The position numbers and the translations under genes are program-made. From Sporosarcina sp. Marseille-Q4063 (lineage in GTDB: Bacteria > Bacillota > Bacilli > Bacillales_A > Planococcaceae), in contig NZ_CP070502.1 in the NCBI RefSeq assembly GCF_018309085.1, positions 2,785,001-2,849,000 of the forward strand: DNA of 64,000 bases, in the 5' to 3' direction. Of this stretch, positions 18,604 through 29,899 are shown one piece after another (within the stretch, counting starts at the first letter, position 1; each line of letters opens with the position of its first letter). The notes under the pieces are model-generated. The model saw only the letters and a program-made list of their open reading frames with translations. It was not told where the DNA came from and did no database searches.

Positions 18604-18674
18604 AAAAGGTAGATGAATGAGCTTATTGTTTCTTGTCATTAGAGTAGTCATTCAAAAAGGAGTTGTTTGTTTCG

Positions 18675-21600
18675 ATGCAAAAACAGAAAAAGAAAAATTT
18701 TGGATTGAATTTTTTTAAACCGATCGAACGTTTCTCTGGAAACTGGACTATCTTAGAAGAAAAAAGTCGTGATTGGGAAAACATGTACCGTCAACGTTGG
18801 TCTCATGACAAGGTAGTACGAACAACACACGGCGTTAACTGTACAGGATCATGCAGTTGGAAAGTTTTCGTGAAAAACGGCATTATCACATGGGAAAATC
18901 AGCAAATCGACTATCCTTCATGCGGACCTGATATGCCGGAATTCGAACCGCGCGGATGTCCTCGTGGTGCATCATTTTCATGGTACGAATACAGTCCGCT
19001 ACGAGTGAAGTATCCATACATACGAGGGAAATTATGGCGTATGTGGGGCCAAGCTTTATCAGAATTTAAAGATCCTGTAAAAGCATGGGCAAGCATCGTC
19101 GATGATCCTGAAAAAGCAGTTGAATATAAAAAAGCCCGTGGAAAAGGCGGACACGTTCGCGTTAATTGGCGTGATGCAACAATGCTCATTTCCGCACAAC
19201 TAATCCACACAATTCAAAAGTATGGACCTGACCGAATTGCCGGTTTCACACCGATTCCAGCGATGTCGATGGTCAGTTACGCGTCTGGAGCTAGATTTCT
19301 ATCTTTAATTGGTGGAGAAATGCTCAGCTTCTATGACTGGTATGCGGATTTACCACCGTCTTCCCCGCAGATTTGGGGCGAACAGACGGATGTTCCGGAA
19401 TCCAGTGACTGGTACAACTCCGGTTATATCATTATGTGGGGTTCAAACGTACCGCTGACAAGAACGCCGGACGCTCATTTCTTAACTGAAGTTCGCTACA
19501 AAGGAACGAAAGTTGTTTCGGTCGCGCCGGATTATGCGGAAAGTGTTGTCCACGCAGATGACTGGATTGCAGCGGATCCGGGTTCAGATGCTGCAGTGGC
19601 ACAAGCAATGACGCATGTTATTCTCGATGAGTTTTATCAAAAACGACAAGAGCCGATGTTCCTTAATTACGCGAAGCAATATACGGATATGCCATTCTTA
19701 ATTACATTAGATAGATTTGAAGATTCATATAAAGCCGGTCGTTTTCTTCGCGCAAGCGATCTCGGAAGTGATTCGGAACACGCAGAATGGAAACCGGTCA
19801 TTTACGACGAAGCGACCAATGAAATCATTGTGCCGAACGGAACGATGGGGCAGCGTTGGGAAGAAGACGCGAAATGGAATCTCATTCTCGATAATGAAGA
19901 TGGAACACGCGTAGAACCAGCACTATCGATTGCTGAACACGGGGCGGATTGGGAAGAAATTGTATTCCCGTACTTTGATAATGTTGCAAATGGAACATTC
20001 AAACGTCCAATCCCAGCGAAAAAAGTATTGATGGCTGATGGTACAGAACGTCTTGTGACGACTGTTCACGATTTAATGCTAAGTCAATACGGTATTAATC
20101 GAATCGGTAGCGAACTTGAAGCATCCGGTTACGATGATGCAGAATCATTTTATACACCTGCTTGGCAAGAGAAAATCACGAATGTGAAACCTGAACTTGT
20201 CACGCAAATCGCCCGTGAATTCGCGCAAAATGCGCTGGATACAGGCGGCCGTTCCATGATTATCATGGGCGCAGGGATTAACCACTGGTTTAATAGTGAT
20301 ACCATTTACCGCGCTATTTTAAACTTAGTGACTCTGACAGCTTCGCAAGGCGTGAACGGCGGCGGATGGGCGCATTATGTCGGCCAAGAAAAATGTCGTC
20401 CGATTGAAGGATGGAGCACAATTGCATTCGCACGAGATTGGCAAGCGCCGCCTCGACTTCAAAACGCGACTTCTTATTTCTATTTCGCAACTGACCAATG
20501 GAAATACGAAGAAATGGGCGCTGACCTATTAATGTCGCCGACAGAAGGCAAGCCGCGTTATGAGCATCCAGCAGATTATAATGTTCTAGCTGCACGACTT
20601 GGATGGTTGCCATCTTATCCTCAATTTAATAAAAACAGTCTTGTCTTTGCAGAAGAAGCAGCAAAAGAAGGAAAAACGTCAACTGAAGAAATTGTCGCCC
20701 ATACATTGGAGCAAATAAAATCTGGTGAAATTCAATTTGCAGCTGAAGACCCAGGCGCACCTGAAAACTTCCCGCGCTCATTGTTCGTCTGGCGTTCAAA
20801 CTTAGTATCCAGTTCCGCAAAAGGTCAAGAATATTTCATGAAACACTTATTCGGAGCTTCTGACGGCCTGCTTGCAACGGTGAATGATGAATTGAAACCT
20901 GAGGAAATGGCATGGCGAGACGAAGTGGAAGGGAAACTGGATTTACTCGTTGCGCTTGATTTCCGAATGACAGCAACACCGATGTATGCGGATGTGGTTC
21001 TGCCAGCAGCAACTTGGTATGAAAAACACGACCTGTCATCAACGGATATGCACCCATTCGTCCATCCATTCAATCCGGCTGTAGACCCATTATGGGAATC
21101 AAGATCTGACTGGGATATTTATAGATCGTTGGCAGAAACTTTCTCTGAGATGGCGAAGGTTCACCTACCAGGTGTTTACAAAGACTTGGTCACAACGCCG
21201 CTCGCGCATGATTCAGTTCAGGAAATTGCACAACCGTACGGCGAAGTGAAAGATTGGAAAAAAGGCGAAGTTGAAGCAATTCCAGGGAAAACGATGCCAG
21301 GAATGACGATTGTCGAACGTGATTACACGAAAGTATACGATAAATACGTCACACTCGGGCCTTTACTTTCAACCGGAAAAGTCGGCGCGCATGGGGTGAA
21401 TTTCTCCGTTGCGGACGAATATGAACAAATGAAAGGCATTAACGGCACTTATTTCGACGAAACGATTAAAAACGGCTTGCCGAAACTTCACACTGCAAAA
21501 CATGCGGCTGAAGCGATGCTGACACTATCTTCGGCAACAAATGGCCGGGTTTCCCAAAAAGCATTTGCTGCTGCTGAAGAAGATACAGGCGTGGAGTTAA

Positions 21601-22361
21601 AAGACATCTCAGCTGACCGAGCTGCTGAACGATTTACATTCGCGAGCATCACCGCGCAACCGCGCGAAGTAATTCCGACGCCAGTATTCTCTGGATCGAA
21701 TAAACTAGGGCGTCGTTATTCACCATTTACGACGAACATCGAACGACTTGTCCCGTTCAGAACGCTGACAGGTCGACAACATTTCTATATCGACCACGAG
21801 TTATTCCTAGATTTCGGAGAAGCGTTACCTGTTTACAAGCCGACGCTACCGCCAATGGTATTCGGACCGCGGGATAAACAAATTATCGGAGGACAAGATT
21901 CGCTCGTATTACGATATTTAACACCGCACGGCAAGTGGAATATCCACTCAACGTATCAAGATAACCAGCATATGCTCACACTATTCCGCGGGGGACCAAC
22001 CGTTTGGATTTCGGATGTGGACGCAGCTGAACATGATATCGATGACAACCAATGGCTTGAAGTATACAACCGAAATGGTGTTGTCACAGCACGTGCCGTT
22101 GTCAGTCACAGAATGCCGAAAGGAACAATGTTTATGTACCATGCTCAAGATAAACATATCCAAGTTCCAGGGTCAGAAATTACGGACGAACGAGGCGGAA
22201 GCCATAACGCACCAACACGTATTCACATGAAACCGACGCAAATGGTCGGCGGATATGCGCAACTCAGTTATGGATTCAACTATTATGGACCAATTGGAAA
22301 TCAGCGAGATGTTTACGTCGCAGTTCGCAAGATGAAGGAGGTAAACTGGCTTGAAAATTAA
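18675..22361 (+). CDS. narG: Respiratory nitrate reductase alpha subunit NarG
   Basis: The protein has 1228 residues, standard for NarG. It reduces nitrate to nitrite on the cytoplasmic side using bis-MGD molybdenum. The N-terminal FS0 cluster ligands H52, C56, C60 and C95 are present in THGVNCTGSC and GCPRG. D225 in WYADLPP is the Mo ligand. ATG 18675 follows AAGGAG with 12-nt spacing; the TTG at 18663 abuts that site and is less likely. It overlaps narH by 11 nt and depends on the mo-cofactor genes further along the island. Confidence 0.97.
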   Translation: MQKQKKKNFGLNFFKPIERFSGNWTILEEKSRDWENMYRQRWSHDKVVRTTHGVNCTGSCSWKVFVKNGIITWENQQIDYPSCGPDMPEFEPRGCPRGASFSWYEYSPLRVKYPYIRGKLWRMWGQALSEFKDPVKAWASIVDDPEKAVEYKKARGKGGHVRVNWRDATMLISAQLIHTIQKYGPDRIAGFTPIPAMSMVSYASGARFLSLIGGEMLSFYDWYADLPPSSPQIWGEQTDVPESSDWYNSGYIIMWGSNVPLTRTPDAHFLTEVRYKGTKVVSVAPDYAESVVHADDWIAADPGSDAAVAQAMTHVILDEFYQKRQEPMFLNYAKQYTDMPFLITLDRFEDSYKAGRFLRASDLGSDSEHAEWKPVIYDEATNEIIVPNGTMGQRWEEDAKWNLILDNEDGTRVEPALSIAEHGADWEEIVFPYFDNVANGTFKRPIPAKKVLMADGTERLVTTVHDLMLSQYGINRIGSELEASGYDDAESFYTPAWQEKITNVKPELVTQIAREFAQNALDTGGRSMIIMGAGINHWFNSDTIYRAILNLVTLTASQGVNGGGWAHYVGQEKCRPIEGWSTIAFARDWQAPPRLQNATSYFYFATDQWKYEEMGADLLMSPTEGKPRYEHPADYNVLAARLGWLPSYPQFNKNSLVFAEEAAKEGKTSTEEIVAHTLEQIKSGEIQFAAEDPGAPENFPRSLFVWRSNLVSSSAKGQEYFMKHLFGASDGLLATVNDELKPEEMAWRDEVEGKLDLLVALDFRMTATPMYADVVLPAATWYEKHDLSSTDMHPFVHPFNPAVDPLWESRSDWDIYRSLAETFSEMAKVHLPGVYKDLVTTPLAHDSVQEIAQPYGEVKDWKKGEVEAIPGKTMPGMTIVERDYTKVYDKYVTLGPLLSTGKVGAHGVNFSVADEYEQMKGINGTYFDETIKNGLPKLHTAKHAAEAMLTLSSATNGRVSQKAFAAAEEDTGVELKDISADRAAERFTFASITAQPREVIPTPVFSGSNKLGRRYSPFTTNIERLVPFRTLTGRQHFYIDHELFLDFGEALPVYKPTLPPMVFGPRDKQIIGGQDSLVLRYLTPHGKWNIHSTYQDNQHMLTLFRGGPTVWISDVDAAEHDIDDNQWLEVYNRNGVVTARAVVSHRMPKGTMFMYHAQDKHIQVPGSEITDERGGSHNAPTRIHMKPTQMVGGYAQLSYGFNYYGPIGNQRDVYVAVRKMKEVNWLEN

Positions 22362-23958
22362 AGCGCAAGTAGCAATGGTTATGAATCTAGACAAATGTAT
22401 CGGATGCCACACATGCAGCGTCACATGTAAAACGACATGGACAAACCGTGAAGGCGCGGAATATATGTGGTTCAACAACGTCGAAACAAAGCCGGGCATT
22501 GGTTATCCAAAGAGATGGGAAGACCAAGAACTTTACAAAGGCGGCTGGCAGGTCAATAAAAAAGGGAAACTCGAATTGAAATCGGGCTCCAAATTATCAA
22601 AGATTGCCCTAGGGAAGATTTTTTACAACCCTGATATGCCAGAAATGAAAGATTACTATGAACCTTGGACATACGATTATGAGAAACTCACGATGGCAGG
22701 CGATAGCGAACATACACCTGTAGCGCGTGCGAAATCCGTTGTCACGGGGGAATATATGGATTTAGAATGGGGCCCTAACTGGGAAGACCAATTAGCGGGT
22801 GCACATATCACAGGTCCGAAAGACCCGAATATCGAAAAAATTGAAGAAGAAATTAAATTCAACTTCGAACAAGCATTTATGATGTATTTACCAAGACTAT
22901 GCGAACACTGCCTAAATCCGAGCTGTGTCGCATCATGCCCATCAGGTGCGATGTACAAACGCGAGGAAGACGGGATTGTTCTTGTCGACCAAGAGGCATG
23001 TCGCGGCTGGCGTTATTGCATGACTGGTTGCCCGTACAAAAAAGTTTACTTCAACTGGAAAACAAATAAAGCGGAGAAATGCACATTCTGTTTCCCGCGT
23101 ATTGAATCTGGTTTACCGACAGTTTGTTCTGAAACATGTACAGGTCGAATTCGTTATCTGGGCGTCCTTTTATATGATGCAGACCGTGTACTTGAAGCGG
23201 CTTCAACACCAGATCCAAAAGATCTATACAAAGCGCAATGTGATTTATTCCTTGATCCAAGTGATCCTGAAGTAATTGAACAAGCGAGAAAAGATGGGAT
23301 ATCGGAAGAATGGATTGAAGCGGCTCAAAACTCGCCTGTTTATAAACTGGCAATCGAGTATAAGCTTGCGTTTCCGTTACACCCGGAATACCGTACGCTT
23401 CCGATGGTTTGGTATGTTCCGCCGCTTAGCCCGATCATGAATTATTTTGAGGGAAGAGATTCAATAAAAAATCCGGACATGATTTTTCCAGCAATTGAGG
23501 AAATGCGGATACCGATTCAATACTTGGCCAATATGCTGACAGCCGGGGATACAGAAACGGTGAAAAAAGCATTGCAACGCATGGCGATGATGAGGTCCTA
23601 TATGCGTGCAGTTTCATCCGGAAAAGATTTTGATGAAGCACGTCTCGAACGCGTGGGTTTATCAGCGCATCAGACGAAACAAATGTATCGACTGCTCGCA
23701 ATTGCAAAATACGAAGATCGTTTTGTCATCCCGACATCCCATAAAGAAGGCCATATGAACGCTTACCGTTCACAAGGTTCAACAGGATATGAAGAAATGG
23801 GCGATTACAGTATGGGTAAAACGCAAAGTCCATACAGTTATGCAGCGCCAATTAGTATCGAAGACGGCAGTTGTGATGGATGCGGGCCAGTAGAACCAGC
23901 AAAAACAGGCAAACAAATTTATGAAGAAAACTTCTACGGGGGGATTTGGCGTGATTGA
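22351..23958 (+). CDS. narH: Respiratory nitrate reductase beta subunit NarH
   Basis: The protein has 535 residues and carries electrons from NarI to NarG through four Fe-S clusters. Cys groups are visible in CIGCHTCSVTC, CEHCLNPSCVASC, CRGWRYCMTGC (with Trp in the slot that makes a [3Fe-4S] cluster) and CTFCFPR with a later CSETC. The TTG start follows AAGGAGGT, which itself lies within the narG end. Its 3' end overlaps narJ. Confidence 0.97.
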   Translation: MKIKAQVAMVMNLDKCIGCHTCSVTCKTTWTNREGAEYMWFNNVETKPGIGYPKRWEDQELYKGGWQVNKKGKLELKSGSKLSKIALGKIFYNPDMPEMKDYYEPWTYDYEKLTMAGDSEHTPVARAKSVVTGEYMDLEWGPNWEDQLAGAHITGPKDPNIEKIEEEIKFNFEQAFMMYLPRLCEHCLNPSCVASCPSGAMYKREEDGIVLVDQEACRGWRYCMTGCPYKKVYFNWKTNKAEKCTFCFPRIESGLPTVCSETCTGRIRYLGVLLYDADRVLEAASTPDPKDLYKAQCDLFLDPSDPEVIEQARKDGISEEWIEAAQNSPVYKLAIEYKLAFPLHPEYRTLPMVWYVPPLSPIMNYFEGRDSIKNPDMIFPAIEEMRIPIQYLANMLTAGDTETVKKALQRMAMMRSYMRAVSSGKDFDEARLERVGLSAHQTKQMYRLLAIAKYEDRFVIPTSHKEGHMNAYRSQGSTGYEEMGDYSMGKTQSPYSYAAPISIEDGSCDGCGPVEPAKTGKQIYEENFYGGIWRD

Positions 23959-24520
23959 TTTAGAGAGGCTGTATGAAGAAAAACAAGCATTCGGCTTCTT
24001 TGCAAATCAACTTACGTACCCCGATAAATCAACTTATCATCCGTCGGTTTTGGAAGAGTCAATTGACTCTTCCCATCCGGCATATGCGGATATTAAGAAG
24101 TATTGGGATTTAATGCATGAGTTCAGTTTCGATGAGATTCAGGAAATGTATACATACACATTTGATTTCCAGAAGGAAACGACACTGTTCATGACCTATG
24201 TAAAATATGAAGATGCAAAAGACCGAGGACAAATGCTTGCAAAGTTGAAGGTTCTTTATGAAATGTTCGGACTCAATATGCCCGCAGGAGAATTATCCGA
24301 CTTTTTGCCGCTTATGTGTGAATTTATCTATGCAGCGGAGTGGATTGGTGATGACCGAGCACCACAAAGTTTCGGAATGCTTCTAGCTGTGATGGAAGAT
24401 GGTTCGTATCATTTATTAAAAGCGCTTGAGAAACATAATAGTCCCTACTTTTATTTAATAAGAGGAATGAGGGAAACTTTCAAGTCTTGTATTCGTCAGG
24501 AGGCACAAGCCAATGAGTGA
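23951..24520 (+). CDS. narJ: Nitrate reductase assembly chaperone NarJ
   Basis: The protein has 189 residues and an all-helical TorD/NarJ-type fold. It helps insert the molybdenum cofactor into NarG and holds it until membrane docking; it is not part of the mature enzyme. GTG 23951 is chosen because GGGGGGA (about 23939-23944) is well spaced; the ATG at 23921 has no ribosome site. It overlaps narH by 8 nt and narI by 8 nt. Confidence 0.92.
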   Translation: MIDLERLYEEKQAFGFFANQLTYPDKSTYHPSVLEESIDSSHPAYADIKKYWDLMHEFSFDEIQEMYTYTFDFQKETTLFMTYVKYEDAKDRGQMLAKLKVLYEMFGLNMPAGELSDFLPLMCEFIYAAEWIGDDRAPQSFGMLLAVMEDGSYHLLKALEKHNSPYFYLIRGMRETFKSCIRQEAQANE

Positions 24521-25193
24521 TCAATTTTTATGGGTTATTTTCCCCTATATTTGCATGGCGGTATTTATTGTCGGCCATATATTTAGGTGGCGAAACGATC
24601 AGTTTGGATGGACAGCAAAATCAAGTGAATTTATTGAAAAGAAGCAGTTGATGATTGGTAGTTTATTATTCCACATCGGGATAATCCCGGTTATTGCCGG
24701 ACATGTCGCTGGTCTGGGGATCCCGAAAGAATGGACGCGCGCTCTCGGGATAAGTGATCATATGTATCATATGGGCGCGATTTGGGGCGGCGGTTTTTTC
24801 GGAGTCGTCACTTTCCTCGGCATGCTTATTTTAACATGGAGACGCTTTGCGATTAGCAATGTCCGCAAATTATCATCGGCATCCGATTTAATTGTTAACT
24901 CGTTACTTCTCTTTATTGTTTTTATTGGCATGTACAGTGTAATCGGGACAAGTGTCACGCAACCTGATTTCGATTATCGTGATTCGATTTCGATTTGGTT
25001 CAGGTCGCTACTCATCTTCCGGCCCGAAGCAAGCTTTATGTCAGGTGTCCCGGTGGCATTTCAGTTGCACATCTTATCAGGCTTTCTCATCTTCGCGATG
25101 TGGCCCTTTACAAGACTCGTTCACGTATGGAGCGTACCTTTGAATTACGTTGGAAGAAGCTATATTATATATAGAAGAGACACCAAGAAGTAA
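24513..25193 (+). CDS. narI: Respiratory nitrate reductase gamma subunit NarI (cytochrome b)
   Basis: The protein has 226 residues and five membrane helices. It oxidises menaquinol and passes electrons through two b-type hemes to NarH. Candidate heme His residues are in FHIGIIPVIAGH and in the C-terminal FQLHILSG and TRLVHVW. ATG 24513 follows CAGGAGG inside narJ. It is the last gene of narGHJI before a hairpin. Confidence 0.95.
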   Translation: MSDQFLWVIFPYICMAVFIVGHIFRWRNDQFGWTAKSSEFIEKKQLMIGSLLFHIGIIPVIAGHVAGLGIPKEWTRALGISDHMYHMGAIWGGGFFGVVTFLGMLILTWRRFAISNVRKLSSASDLIVNSLLLFIVFIGMYSVIGTSVTQPDFDYRDSISIWFRSLLIFRPEASFMSGVPVAFQLHILSGFLIFAMWPFTRLVHVWSVPLNYVGRSYIIYRRDTKK

Positions 25194-25245: not shown

Positions 25246-25707
25246 ATGAACGAACAACAAACATTCAACTTTCAACTGGAAATAGAACAGATCAGAAAGG
25301 CATTCGATTTTGACCTCGTTGCTTTGGCACTTGTTCATCCAGCAGAAAGACGTTTTACGAGCAAATGGGAATATGTAACAGGTAATAAAAGCAATCGCTA
25401 TAAACGGCTCACTTTACAAACGGGCAAAGGCGTCGCGGGCGCTGTGCTGAAAACAGGCAAGCCGCTGCTTATGAGCGATGTTAAAAGTTTGATTGATGAA
25501 GGGGAATTGTTTAATTATCCAATTATTGTTGCCGAAAAGCTAACAAGTTTCGGGGCAATTCCACTTTATAAATATAACCGCGTCAAAGGTGTGCTTTTGG
25601 TGGCTTTTCGTGATGATAAAGTACTGACAGAAGAAGTTTTTAAAAAATTCAAAGAAACAATAGGCTCAAGATTCGGTCCCTACTACAATAAGGAGATGGT
25701 GAAGTGA
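25246..25707 (+). CDS. nreA: GAF-domain nitrate receptor NreA
   Basis: The protein has 153 residues and is one GAF domain, the length and position of staphylococcal NreA, which binds nitrate and restrains NreB until nitrate is present. Features include LQTGKGVAGAVLKTG and PLYKYNRVKGVL, typical of GAF core strands. ATG 25246 follows a GGGAG site, and the end overlaps nreB by GTGA. Confidence 0.85.
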   Translation: MNEQQTFNFQLEIEQIRKAFDFDLVALALVHPAERRFTSKWEYVTGNKSNRYKRLTLQTGKGVAGAVLKTGKPLLMSDVKSLIDEGELFNYPIIVAEKLTSFGAIPLYKYNRVKGVLLVAFRDDKVLTEEVFKKFKETIGSRFGPYYNKEMVK

Positions 25708-26780
25708 AACTCGGGAGTTTTCAATTAACGGATTTGTTGATGAAAATGTACGATAATTCTGCTGAAGCCATCTTCTTTTTTAATCCAAAAGGACATGTCA
25801 TAGCGATGAATGAATCCGCAAAACTGATCCTGGATTCGGATGTATTAAGTCGAATGGCAGAAGGTGAACAAAATGCTTTTTGTATGTCTTGTAAAGGTTA
25901 TACAAATGAGCAAGATTTAATAACTTGCCAGTCTTGTTATTTAGTAAGCCCGCAGGATGATTTTAGTTCATTCCAAGTTTATTTAGATACAAGAGGCAAG
26001 GGAATTACACCGTATACGGCAAGTTTTCAAACAATTGATGAAGAAAATGGAATTCGTGTATTTATGCTTCGCGATTTGACAAAGCAGTTCAAGACGCAAG
26101 CCGAACTAAATGAAAAGACGATGACGAAAAGCGTTATTAAAGCACAAGAAGATGAGCGAAAGCGTATTTCACGGGAACTGCATGACAGCGTAGCGCAGGA
26201 AATGCTAAGTTCGCTGGTCGACTTGAGAGTTCTCAAATATATGGACATTAATCAAGATGTGCTCAAGAAGGTTCAACAAACAGAAGGTTCACTCATGCGA
26301 TTACTCGAAGATATTCGATTTTTGTCTGTCGAATTACGACCCGCTACATTAGATGATCTTGGGCTTGAGGCCGCCTTTAGAACACATTTTAAATGGATTG
26401 AAAAAAACTATGGGATTGTCATTGAATTTACAGCTGAATTGCAGGCGAAAAGGTATGAAGGTGAAATTGAAACTGTCGTTTATCGCATCTGCCAAGAATC
26501 TGTATTTAACGCAGTGAAATATGCCGGTGTGGACGTAATTACAGTGCGACTATTTGAAGAGTCGGATCATCTTAATTTGGCTGTTACGGATAATGGAATT
26601 GGCTTCGATTTAAACTCACGAACCTCAATCGGAACGGGTCTTGGGCTTTACGGCATGCGAGAACGCGCCGAATTAGTAGAAGGCCAGTTATCCATTCAAG
26701 CAGAAATTGGAAAGGGAACAGCTGTATATTTGAAAATACCACTTGAAACTACAGTGGTGAAAGAAGGAGAGAAAGCGTGA
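25704..26780 (+). CDS. nreB: Oxygen-sensing histidine kinase NreB
   Basis: The protein has 358 residues. An N-terminal PAS domain holds C60, C63, C75 and C78 in a CX2CX11CX2C pattern, the ligands of the oxygen-labile [4Fe-4S] cluster of NreB. The HisKA_3 phospho-acceptor is H160 in [11 protein letters not shown]; the ATP domain has NAVKYA, DNGIGFD and [15 protein letters not shown]. No membrane segment is seen, so it is cytoplasmic. Without oxygen the intact cluster allows autophosphorylation and transfer to NreC. GTG 25704 follows AAGGAGA; it overlaps both neighbours by 4 nt. Confidence 0.95.
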
Positions 26781-27424
26781 AAATAATTATCGCGGATGAC
26801 CATGCAGTTGTTCGTAGCGGTTTTATGCATATTTTAAATTTCCAGCATGATATGGAAGTTGTCGCGACTGCCGCTGATGGGCTTGAAGCCTATGCAAAAG
26901 TAGCAAAACATCGTCCAGACGTTTTGTTGATGGATCTAAGTATGCCACCCGGTGAAAGCGGGCTCATTGCGACTGGGAAAATTCATGAGGATTTCCCTGA
27001 TACTAAAATTCTGATTCTGACCATGCATGACGATGAGGAGTATTTATTTCACGTACTGAAAAATGGCGCTGCGGGATACATTTTAAAAAATGCACCAGAT
27101 GAAGAGTTATTATCCGCAGTGCGCACGGTTTACAATGGGGATACGTATATTCACCCTTCAATGGCAACATCGCTCGTTCGTGAATTTATTAAACATGACA
27201 CGATTGGTCCGGAAGACGACCCGTTTAAAATATTGACGAAACGAGAACTTGAAGTTCTTCCTTTGGCGGCAAAAGGTTATGGGAATAAAGATATTGCCGA
27301 AAAATTGTTTATTTCCGTTAAAACGGTAGAAGCGCATAAGTCTCGTATTATGGAAAAACTTAATTTGAAAAGTCGACCTGAACTTATTGAATATGCGCTA
27401 CGAAAAAAGCTGTTGGACTTTTAA
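26777..27424 (+). CDS. nreC: Response regulator NreC (NarL/LuxR-type)
   Basis: The protein has 215 residues: a receiver domain with phospho-acceptor D53 in LLMDLSMP and a C-terminal LuxR-type HTH (about 150-210) containing [21 protein letters not shown]. Phosphorylated by NreB, it would activate nitrate respiration genes; matching palindromes occur before narG and the narK-like gene. GTG 26777 follows GAAGGAGAG. Confidence 0.95.
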
Positions 27425-27974: not shown

Positions 27975-28045
27975 AGGCATTTCCCTTATAGGTTTAGGGA
28001 TTTCCCCTATTAATAAAAACATGGTTACCCCTTTATACTTATAAT
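27975..28045 (+). promoter_or_regulatory. narK-like promoter with two NreC-like sites
   Basis: AGGC-ATTT-CCCT (27975-27986) and AGGG-ATTT-CCCC (27996-28007, within TAGGGATTTCCCCTA) resemble NreC sites; centres 27980.5 and 28001.5 are 21 bp apart as at narG. TATACT (28034-28039) stands 32.5 bp from the proximal centre, the same distance as the narG -10; TATAAT (28040-28045) is an alternative. Confidence 0.65.
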
Positions 28046-28100
28046 AGGCAATCAGTCAATACGGATCGCTCAATACTGACAGATAGAGTAGGTGGTTTGG

Positions 28101-29591
28101 TTGATAAAAAAAGTACAGGTACCATTACAAACATTGAACTGCATGGTTGGATTTATGGTTTGGGTTCTCATCTCTTCATTAATGCCGTTTATTGTGGAAG
28201 ACATAACGATTCCGGCAGAAAAATTAGCATTGGTGACTGCGGTTCCAATCATACTTGGATCGGTTCTCAGAATTCCGTTTGGTTATTATGCGAATCTTAT
28301 CGGTGCTAGATTAATATTTTTAATTAGTTTCATTCTTTTATTATTCCCCGTCTTTTACATAAGTGCAGCATCTTCAATGCTCGATCTTATTATTGGAGGA
28401 ACATTCCTCGGAATCGGGGGAGCGGTGTTTTCGGTCGGCGTTACTTCGTTGCCGAAATATTTTCCGAAAGAAAAACACGGGCTTGTCAACGGGATTTACG
28501 GAATTGGTAACTTAGGAACCGCTGTATCAACATTTGCGGCCCCGGTGATTGCAACACAAGTCGGTTGGTCGATGACGGTTAAACTTTACATGATTTTACT
28601 ACTGATCTTCGCAGCTTTGAACTTCTTCTTTGGCGATAAACAAGAAGTCAAAGTAGTAACTCCAATTGGCGAGCAAATTAAAAGCGTTTATAAAAATGAA
28701 AAGCTTTGGTTTTTCTCATTGTTTTACTTCATCACATTTGGTGCGTTCGTTGCATTTACGGTTTTCTTGCCAAACTTCCTAGTAACCTACTTTGGAATCG
28801 AAAAAGTAGATGCGGGTATGCGTACGGCAGGTTTCATAGCAGTTGCAACATTTTGCCGTCCAATTGGCGGGTGGCTCGGGGATAAGTTCCCGCCGCTTAA
28901 CTTGCTCATGGTCGCTTTCGCGGGTTTGACGGGTGCTGCGGTTGTTCTCGCATTTTCACCGTCAATCGGTTTGTATACAGTGGGAAGCATGATTATCGCA
29001 GTTTGTGCGGGTGCAGGAAACGGGCTTATTTTTAAATTAGTGCCGATGTATTTTAATAAGCAAGCGGGTATTGTTAACGGAATTGTATCGATGATGGGTG
29101 GTTTGGGTGGATTTTTCCCGCCGCTTCTCTTATCTATTGTTTATTCAATGACGGGATCTTACTCGATCGGCTTTATGGCGTTTTCACAAGTTGCGCTTGT
29201 CAGCCTTGTGCTGGTTATCTGGTTGTATTATATGGATAGATTGCATGTCGCAGCGGATGTATTCGATTCGACTGGTCAAGGAATCGTCGTAACGGATCCA
29301 ACTGGGACGATTGAAAAGGTTAACCCAGCATTTACAAGATTGACTGGATTTACAGAAGAAGAAGTTATCGGTAGAAATCCGAACTTTCGAAGTACTGGCA
29401 GGCAGTCCCCAGAATTTTACACGACGATGTGGGGGCAAATTGGACGGGAAGGTTTGTGGCAAGGCAAGCTATGGAATAAACGAAAAAGCGGCGAGGAATA
29501 TTTGGAGCTGTTGTCGATTAGCGCAGTGAAGGATGATTCTGGGGACGTCATACGTTATGTAGGGACGTTTACTGATGTAACGCCGGAGTGA
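28101..29591 (+). CDS. NarK-type nitrate/nitrite transporter fused to a C-terminal PAS domain
   Basis: The protein has 496 residues. Residues about 1-378 form a 12-helix major-facilitator domain of the NarK/NasA group, with the nitrate signature G-rich segments (GIGGAVFSVGVTSLPKYFP and GVCAGAG-like AVCAGAGNGLIFKLVP). After a short linker, residues about 385-496 are a clear PAS domain: DSTGQGIVVTDPTG, NPAFTRLTGF, EEVIGRNPNFRS, and a closing RYVGTFTDVT. The TTG start follows AGGTGG. It sits next to nreABC and the mo-cofactor genes. No catalytic output domain follows; a dispersed repeat begins 26 nt after the stop. The PAS could tune transport or sense nitrate, or be what remains of a longer sensor. 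Confidence 0.88.
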   Translation: MIKKVQVPLQTLNCMVGFMVWVLISSLMPFIVEDITIPAEKLALVTAVPIILGSVLRIPFGYYANLIGARLIFLISFILLLFPVFYISAASSMLDLIIGGTFLGIGGAVFSVGVTSLPKYFPKEKHGLVNGIYGIGNLGTAVSTFAAPVIATQVGWSMTVKLYMILLLIFAALNFFFGDKQEVKVVTPIGEQIKSVYKNEKLWFFSLFYFITFGAFVAFTVFLPNFLVTYFGIEKVDAGMRTAGFIAVATFCRPIGGWLGDKFPPLNLLMVAFAGLTGAAVVLAFSPSIGLYTVGSMIIAVCAGAGNGLIFKLVPMYFNKQAGIVNGIVSMMGGLGGFFPPLLLSIVYSMTGSYSIGFMAFSQVALVSLVLVIWLYYMDRLHVAADVFDSTGQGIVVTDPTGTIEKVNPAFTRLTGFTEEEVIGRNPNFRSTGRQSPEFYTTMWGQIGREGLWQGKLWNKRKSGEEYLELLSISAVKDDSGDVIRYVGTFTDVTPE

Positions 29592-29617: not shown

Positions 29618-29774
29618 GTTGATTTCCGTTGCGGGCAATGAAAGAGCGGTCTTCTCTTTCGCACTTATGCTTTCCTGCGGGCGAGCGCCGAGCCGCTTCC
29701 TTCGCTGTGCTCAGTCCAGGGTCTCGGCTGTCTCGCTGATTCCGCGGGAGTCTTCGCCCTCCACTCCAATCAAC
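29618..29774. repeat. Dispersed GC-rich repeat element with 7-bp terminal inverted repeats
   Basis: The element begins GTTGATT (29618-29624) and ends AATCAAC (29768-29774). It is much richer in GC than its surroundings and contains the hairpin GAAAGAG/CTCTTTC and the GCGGGCGAGCGCCGAGCCGC segment. From memory, this resembles a repeat common between genes in Bacillaceae and Planococcaceae. A 27-nt block (29640-29666) is shared at 24 positions with 60902-60928. It fills most of the 308-nt gap before the moeB-like gene; 29775-29899 shows only the ribosome site. Confidence 0.7.
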
Positions 29775-29899
29775 TGGAAATCTCATTAAATTAAGGAAGT
29801 TATTCAAATAGCCTATAAAAAAGCAAGTAAGGAAGTACCCATCAATTTTATTCGTCTTATTTAATAACATTTGATTACTTAGAAAGGGGTGAGCAAAGG

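Follow-up and report, generated by a model that had tools for sequence, protein, structure and literature searches.

A NarK-type nitrate transporter fused to a NifL-type PAS domain in Sporosarcina and other Bacilli, a candidate for redox gating of nitrate uptake

The DNA analysed here, referred to as the window, is a stretch of 64,000 nucleotides from Sporosarcina sp. Marseille-Q4063. On its forward strand, narG, narH, narJ and narI are followed by nreABC, a hemerythrin-type gene, a gene designated here narK-PAS, and molybdenum-cofactor genes (Table 1). We found no family match for narJ at 1e-40, and the gene was named from its position. NreA matched its model at 1.7e-39, below the cut-off, and NreB and NreC were named via their domains and the gene order. 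The narK-PAS gene starts with TTG; a database copy (P0002) has the same length, consistent with this start. Positions 29669-29790, 3' of the gene, belong to an intergenic repeat of about 110 bp that is dispersed in the genome; counted with itself, the stretch 29640-29790 has at least 45 genomic matches at 1e-5 (40 of 64 first-look candidates scored).

Table 1. Features of the narK-PAS locus (positions in the window)
Feature	Position	Strand	Remarks
narG, narH, narJ, narI	18663..25193	+	respiratory nitrate reductase; narG, narH and narI above cut-offs
nreA, nreB, nreC	25246..27424	+	O2/nitrate transcriptional control; nreB with CX2CX11CX2C
palindrome TAGGGATTTCCCCTA	27995..28009	+	resembles an NreC site; about 100 bp 5' of the narK-PAS start
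ribosome binding site AGGTGG	28090..28095	+	5 nt 5' of the TTG start; from sequence
narK-PAS	28101..29591	+	496 aa; NarK-type MFS transporter with C-terminal PAS domain
MFS (NarK-like) part	28101..29240	+	residues 1-380
TM12 into PAS N-cap, single predicted helix	29163..29270	+	residues 355-390; AlphaFold model
PAS domain, putative NifL/FAD type	29271..29588	+	residues 391-496; last part of the protein
Trp444 codon	29430..29432	+	aligns with NifL Trp87 (gapless structural alignment); invariant in 99/99 fusions
Asn459 codon	29475..29477	+	at the NifL Asn102 position (structural alignment); invariant in 99/99 fusions

A reading made from the sequence alone had described this gene as a NarK-type transporter fused to a full PAS domain without an output domain, and Pfam, AlphaFold, Foldseek and the position of the stop codon all confirmed this architecture. 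Pfam, applied to a 499-residue reading of the gene, returned MFS_1 (2.2e-44) followed by PAS_9 at 396-497 (1e-17). The AlphaFold model has an overall pLDDT of 86.3 and a pTM of 0.77, with PAS residues 391-490 at pLDDT 92-95 by blocks. The stop codon lies immediately 3' of the PAS domain, and there is no output domain. Conservation was counted on 99 non-redundant fusions (134 reduced at 95 percent); the PAS domain is the end of the protein in every one of them, and only 0-23 residues (median 7) lie beyond residue 494.

The transporter half resembles NarK. A Foldseek search with the predicted structure gave the NarK/NarU-type entries 4u4w, 4jre and 4iu8 as best matches, and sequence comparison of this half also pointed to NarK-like proteins (4iu8, 4jr9, 4u4t). 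NarK and NarU of E. coli (NNP family; 4u4w, 4jr9, 4iu8) thus share the 12-helix fold, but they have no PAS domain and are only 20-23 percent identical to NarK-PAS in the structural match. The substrate residues of NarK (two Arg, Asn, Tyr and Phe) were taken from the available text of PMC4432589. Judging from the alignment, Arg57 and Arg253 of NarK-PAS are the probable equivalents of NarK R89 and R305; both are invariant in the 99 fusions, as are the other putative substrate residues N137, Y209 and F110, and F213 is present in 98. NarK-PAS scored 200.5 bits against TIGR00886, below the curated cut-off of 311.7, and we therefore use the term NarK-type rather than certified TIGR00886 member; the cut-off is strict, as 9 of 14 control genomes have a match and only 2 of those 9 pass it. 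NarK-PAS is the sole match to this model in its genome at 1e-10. In our best explanation the protein is a putative respiratory nitrate (nitrate/nitrite) transporter.

In structural comparisons of the predicted PAS structure, a NifL-like fold with an N-cap ranked first, with 3lyx_A within 1 Z unit. The first PAS domain of Azotobacter vinelandii NifL (2gj3) has the same fold and N-cap helix, and its Trp87 and Asn102 occupy the places of Trp444 and Asn459. In FAD-binding PAS domains, the available descriptions name the Trp on F-alpha as the determinant of FAD binding and the Asn as a second FAD-binding residue (clusters 4 and 14) (PMC10468136, PMC10874727). These pocket residues, which the sequence-only reading had proposed to examine for conservation, are invariant in the 99 fusions. 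On alignment and model, we assign the PAS domain to the NifL FAD type, and infer that it binds FAD and senses redox state. With a domain of this type, the signal is likely to be redox perceived via flavin rather than nitrate. There are also differences, in that NifL, a soluble regulator, additionally has another PAS domain and a GHKL domain, whereas the PAS domain of NarK-PAS sits on a transporter helix and has no output, and in that Glu70 of NifL is replaced by Pro.

Two other kinds of PAS sensor were considered and rejected. At the place of the photoactive Cys of LOV photoreceptors, which we located by alignment with the C85A variant 6y7r, 98 of the 99 fusions have Pro and one has Thr. The Fe-S PAS of the NreB type presumably requires four Cys in the arrangement CX2CX11CX2C, a pattern present in the NreB of the window; the PAS domain of NarK-PAS at this locus has no Cys, and only 7 of the 99 fusions have any. 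The PAS domain has a low dN/dS. In the sole pair with unsaturated dS (L002), the ratio was 0.041 for the PAS domain, and the transporter half had 0.031; three more PAS values of 0.046, 0.046 and 0.099 were obtained at dS 1.5-1.7, the first two evidently representing the same sequence.

In the AlphaFold model, TM12 continues into the N-cap as one helix. Substitutions in the N-cap helix of NifL are described as spoiling its oxygen response (available text of PMC3466315), and with this predicted connection a change in the PAS domain could therefore reach the transporter directly. The spacing between W374 and T398 is fixed in 99/99 fusions, but as a sign of rigid coupling this carries little weight, because 5 of 6 other transporter segments are equally constant in length.

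The fusion is not confined to this genome, and many soil-dwelling relatives of Sporosarcina and Paenibacillus carry it. Of the 25 genomes of the genus, 20 contain a full-length match, the window's own among them. One of the remaining five (G022) contains a fragment (C1:183008-183400) matching residues 368-498 in the 499-residue numbering and interrupted by a stop, probably a decayed copy. In a sample of the class, NarK-PAS occurs in 66 of 398 genomes and 11 family codes (64 genomes contribute 65 full-length matches, and in 2 others the match is N-terminally incomplete), and 123 of the 398 have some match at 1e-60. The best 80 of 522 confirmed loci in named genomes all span both domains, a ranking by score that favours full length; they represent Sporosarcina, Planococcus, Paenibacillus, Shouchella, Psychrobacillus, Cytobacillus, Peribacillus, Metabacillus, Mesobacillus, Thalassobacillus and Salimicrobium, and Brevibacillus copies are among the best 120 of 4692 matches. 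Conservation in several genera, which the sequence-only reading had named as support for a function, is thus observed. Two records carry names that look off: 'Bacillus subtilis DE0224' (L104), with a narGHJI-nreABC cluster and NarK-PAS, falls beside Bacillus niameyensis, while Cytobacillus is the group of 'Sporosarcina globispora' (L138).

Relatives without a PAS domain also exist. One group, which we presume to be Staphylococcus-type NarT (f9 loci L064-L066, L073, L074), is 53-59 percent identical to NarK-PAS and has nreABC adjoining in the five loci examined, but stops after TM12 with frames of 387-423 residues. Three further PAS-less copies (L171-L173) are 78-80 percent identical to the Cytobacillus fusion, and PAS-less L057 is 72 percent identical. 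A tree was built on transporter halves, with 147 aligned sequences reduced to 106 by removing those more than 96 percent alike (L055, L056, L070, L072, L075 and L076, repeats or a near relative, and L005, L031, L062 and L063 had been left out before alignment). PAS-less L058 and L060/L061 join fusions on starred branches and L057 does so on an unstarred one, while the Staphylococcus-type clade and L059 have no firm placement in the tree; Staphylococcus-type NarT may have lost the PAS domain or may predate it. The simplest reading is that the PAS domain was lost repeatedly, as the shared junction and the same PAS type disfavour repeated gain; transport therefore very probably works without it.

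The fusion genes are linked to nitrate reduction. Among 102 of them, 69 have narG nearby (61 of these also nreB), 25 have a NasC-type gene and 8 have neither, so that 94/102 are nitrate-reductase linked. Much the same neighbourhoods are seen for the 13 PAS-less relatives (narG 7, NasC-type 5, neither 1). This tally covers loci L037 onward on stretches of at least 12 kb, without the six repeats or near relative named above. The palindrome 5' of narK-PAS is exact and resembles the NreC site. With at most one mismatch, such a palindrome occurs in 80 of 156 NarK upstream regions (9 exact), a set that includes redundant loci and PAS-less genes; 20 base shuffles averaged 3.7 and never exceeded 7. 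This suggests that NreC may control narK-PAS transcription in the nreABC-bearing group, and says nothing for signalling by the PAS domain.

It had also been proposed that NarK-PAS informs the adjacent NreABC system. As a general role this was not supported. Of 28 fusion genomes (15 with the locus examined and lacking nreABC there, and 13 others sharing their genus codes), 18 gave no NreA match at 1e-10, compared with 0 of 14 control genomes; this is a far more lenient threshold than the family cut-off, and even the window's own NreA misses the latter. Moreover, PAS-less relatives adjoin nreABC in L057, L064, L065, L066, L073 and L074.

A different potential partner was found in Cytobacillus and relatives, where the next gene in 14 loci, 2-193 bp after NarK-PAS, encodes a kinase of 215-233 residues without a sensor domain, followed by nreC and nreA relatives. 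Such kinases are of about 214-240 residues, and the one at L140:10539-11189 is a histidine kinase with HisKA_3 and HATPase_c. A search of 121 genomes of one family found them in 62 (1e-40); by comparison of positions by eye, the kinase adjoins NarK-PAS in 13 of these, a PAS-less NarK in 3 and no NarK match in 46. Among 27 kinase loci examined, NarK-PAS is present in 14, a PAS-less NarK in 3, another MFS protein in 4 and none of these in 6, a split biased by the fact that most of the 14 were located through NarK-PAS; L049 also has such a kinase, under the score limit of this tally. A split transceptor kinase is thus not supported by the 121-genome control, and from its 13, 3 and 46 split we regard the kinase module as an independent unit, located in a NasC-FeS-Rieske cluster with a variable transporter slot. 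This cluster (L140:4959-14341, L163-L176; Bacillaceae and relatives) encodes a NasC-like molybdoenzyme under the NasC cut-off, a DmsB-like FeS protein and a Rieske protein with, by eye, a twin-arginine-like leader, together with the variable nitrate transporter slot; after this come the sensor-less kinase and nreC, in most cases nreA, and a PAS kinase. It is possibly an uncharacterised nitrate reductase system. In L049 (G161), two NarK-PAS genes flank the kinase module in one 19-kb stretch, and a PAS-less NarK is found elsewhere in the genome.

Full-text searches of open-access PMC papers gave no description of NarK-PAS among the results examined, in agreement with the sequence-only reading, although the gene itself had been annotated before as a nitrate transporter; many copies are named 'nitrate/nitrite transporter' at NCBI. 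The Bacillus azotoformans gene BAZO_10682, 1500 bp long and linked to narGHJI, likely carries the same fusion, judging from its length; it was published as the NarK2 transporter, and the available part of the paper does not mention a PAS domain (PMC3475470). NarK and PAS modules are each of known kinds, and it is their combination and the proposed mode of action that are new.

Taking these results together, we propose that NarK-PAS transports nitrate for respiration and is switched by its own flavin-type PAS domain, a reading to which we give an even chance. That the PAS domain is instead a functionless remnant of what was once a longer protein, a PAS-kinase or a PAS-GGDEF, is very improbable. 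PAS-less homologues exist and the domain has seemingly been lost several times, but a common end point and an invariant pocket in 99/99 fusions, together with the low dN/dS, argue against a passenger. No kinase or GGDEF form is among the best 120 of 4835, of 4692 and of 1660 matches, the longest of which has at most 525 residues, and we reject the truncation that the sequence-only reading had raised. It is also improbable, if less so, that NarK-PAS is a transceptor in which transport or nitrate occupancy alters the PAS domain and, via NreB or the adjoining sensor-less kinase of Cytobacillus and relatives, tunes nar expression. The many fusion genes with nreB in the same stretch and the kinases directly after NarK-PAS would fit such a role, and CbrA, an SLC5-STAC-PAS-kinase transceptor, is a precedent for a solute transporter and a PAS domain in one chain (available text of PMC7096432). 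CbrA, however, belongs to another transporter family, and has a STAC domain and its kinase in the chain, whereas no NarK-PAS-kinase polypeptide is among the best 120 of 1660 matches to a joined query. The distribution of the sensor-less kinases, the fusion genomes without NreA and the PAS-less relatives beside nreABC point in the same direction. Of the earlier transceptor proposal, a regulatory PAS domain adjusting uptake is retained in our own explanation, and nitrate as the signal is not.

A more serious competitor, which we still regard as unlikely, is that the PAS domain has no FAD redox role. It might bind some other small ligand, such as nitrate, nitrite or a metabolite, or might mediate dimerisation or docking, with nitrate reductase as one conceivable partner. 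In PAS domains of the NifL type, dimerisation runs through the N-cap, which is here joined to TM12, the genes are linked to nitrate reductase, and PAS2 of PA0285 indicates that a PAS domain with both Trp and Asn does not necessarily use FAD (available text of PMC10874727). On the other hand, it is precisely the flavin residues that are invariant, and NifL is the first-ranked fold.

In the redox-gating reading, the cytoplasmic PAS domain would hold FAD, whose oxidation state would track oxygen or the respiratory redox state. The redox change would travel through the helix formed by the N-cap and TM12 and shift the transporter, the reduced form being active and the oxidised form inactive. This would provide fast post-translational control atop transcriptional control by NreABC or other regulators. 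That NarK-PAS is a fully self-contained redox-gated ion transporter, in which the flavin state of a NifL-type PAS domain opens or closes nitrate uptake without phosphorelay, transcription or a partner, we judge slightly less probable than an even chance.

In diverse bacteria, oxygen shuts off respiratory nitrate uptake by acting on the activity of the transporter, through a sensor yet to be found, according to the available text of PMC3445494, which cites work since 1980. The transporters concerned, including NarK2 of M. tuberculosis, are respiratory, as NarK-PAS presumably is, and their redox inhibition could be explained by such a PAS domain; that text, however, mentions no PAS domain and leaves the mechanism unexplained (PMC3445494). 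A flavin redox PAS domain on a respiratory NarK would be a natural device for this shut-off. Since transporters without a PAS domain also display the oxygen effect, it would be one solution, perhaps differently tuned. If the proposal is correct, many genera of Bacilli have a one-protein answer to the oxygen shut-off of nitrate respiration, and direct redox gating of a transporter would join the known outputs of PAS domains. With a widespread nitrate transporter that carries a fused candidate flavin redox sensor, and with natural PAS-less controls, the oxygen question becomes directly testable.
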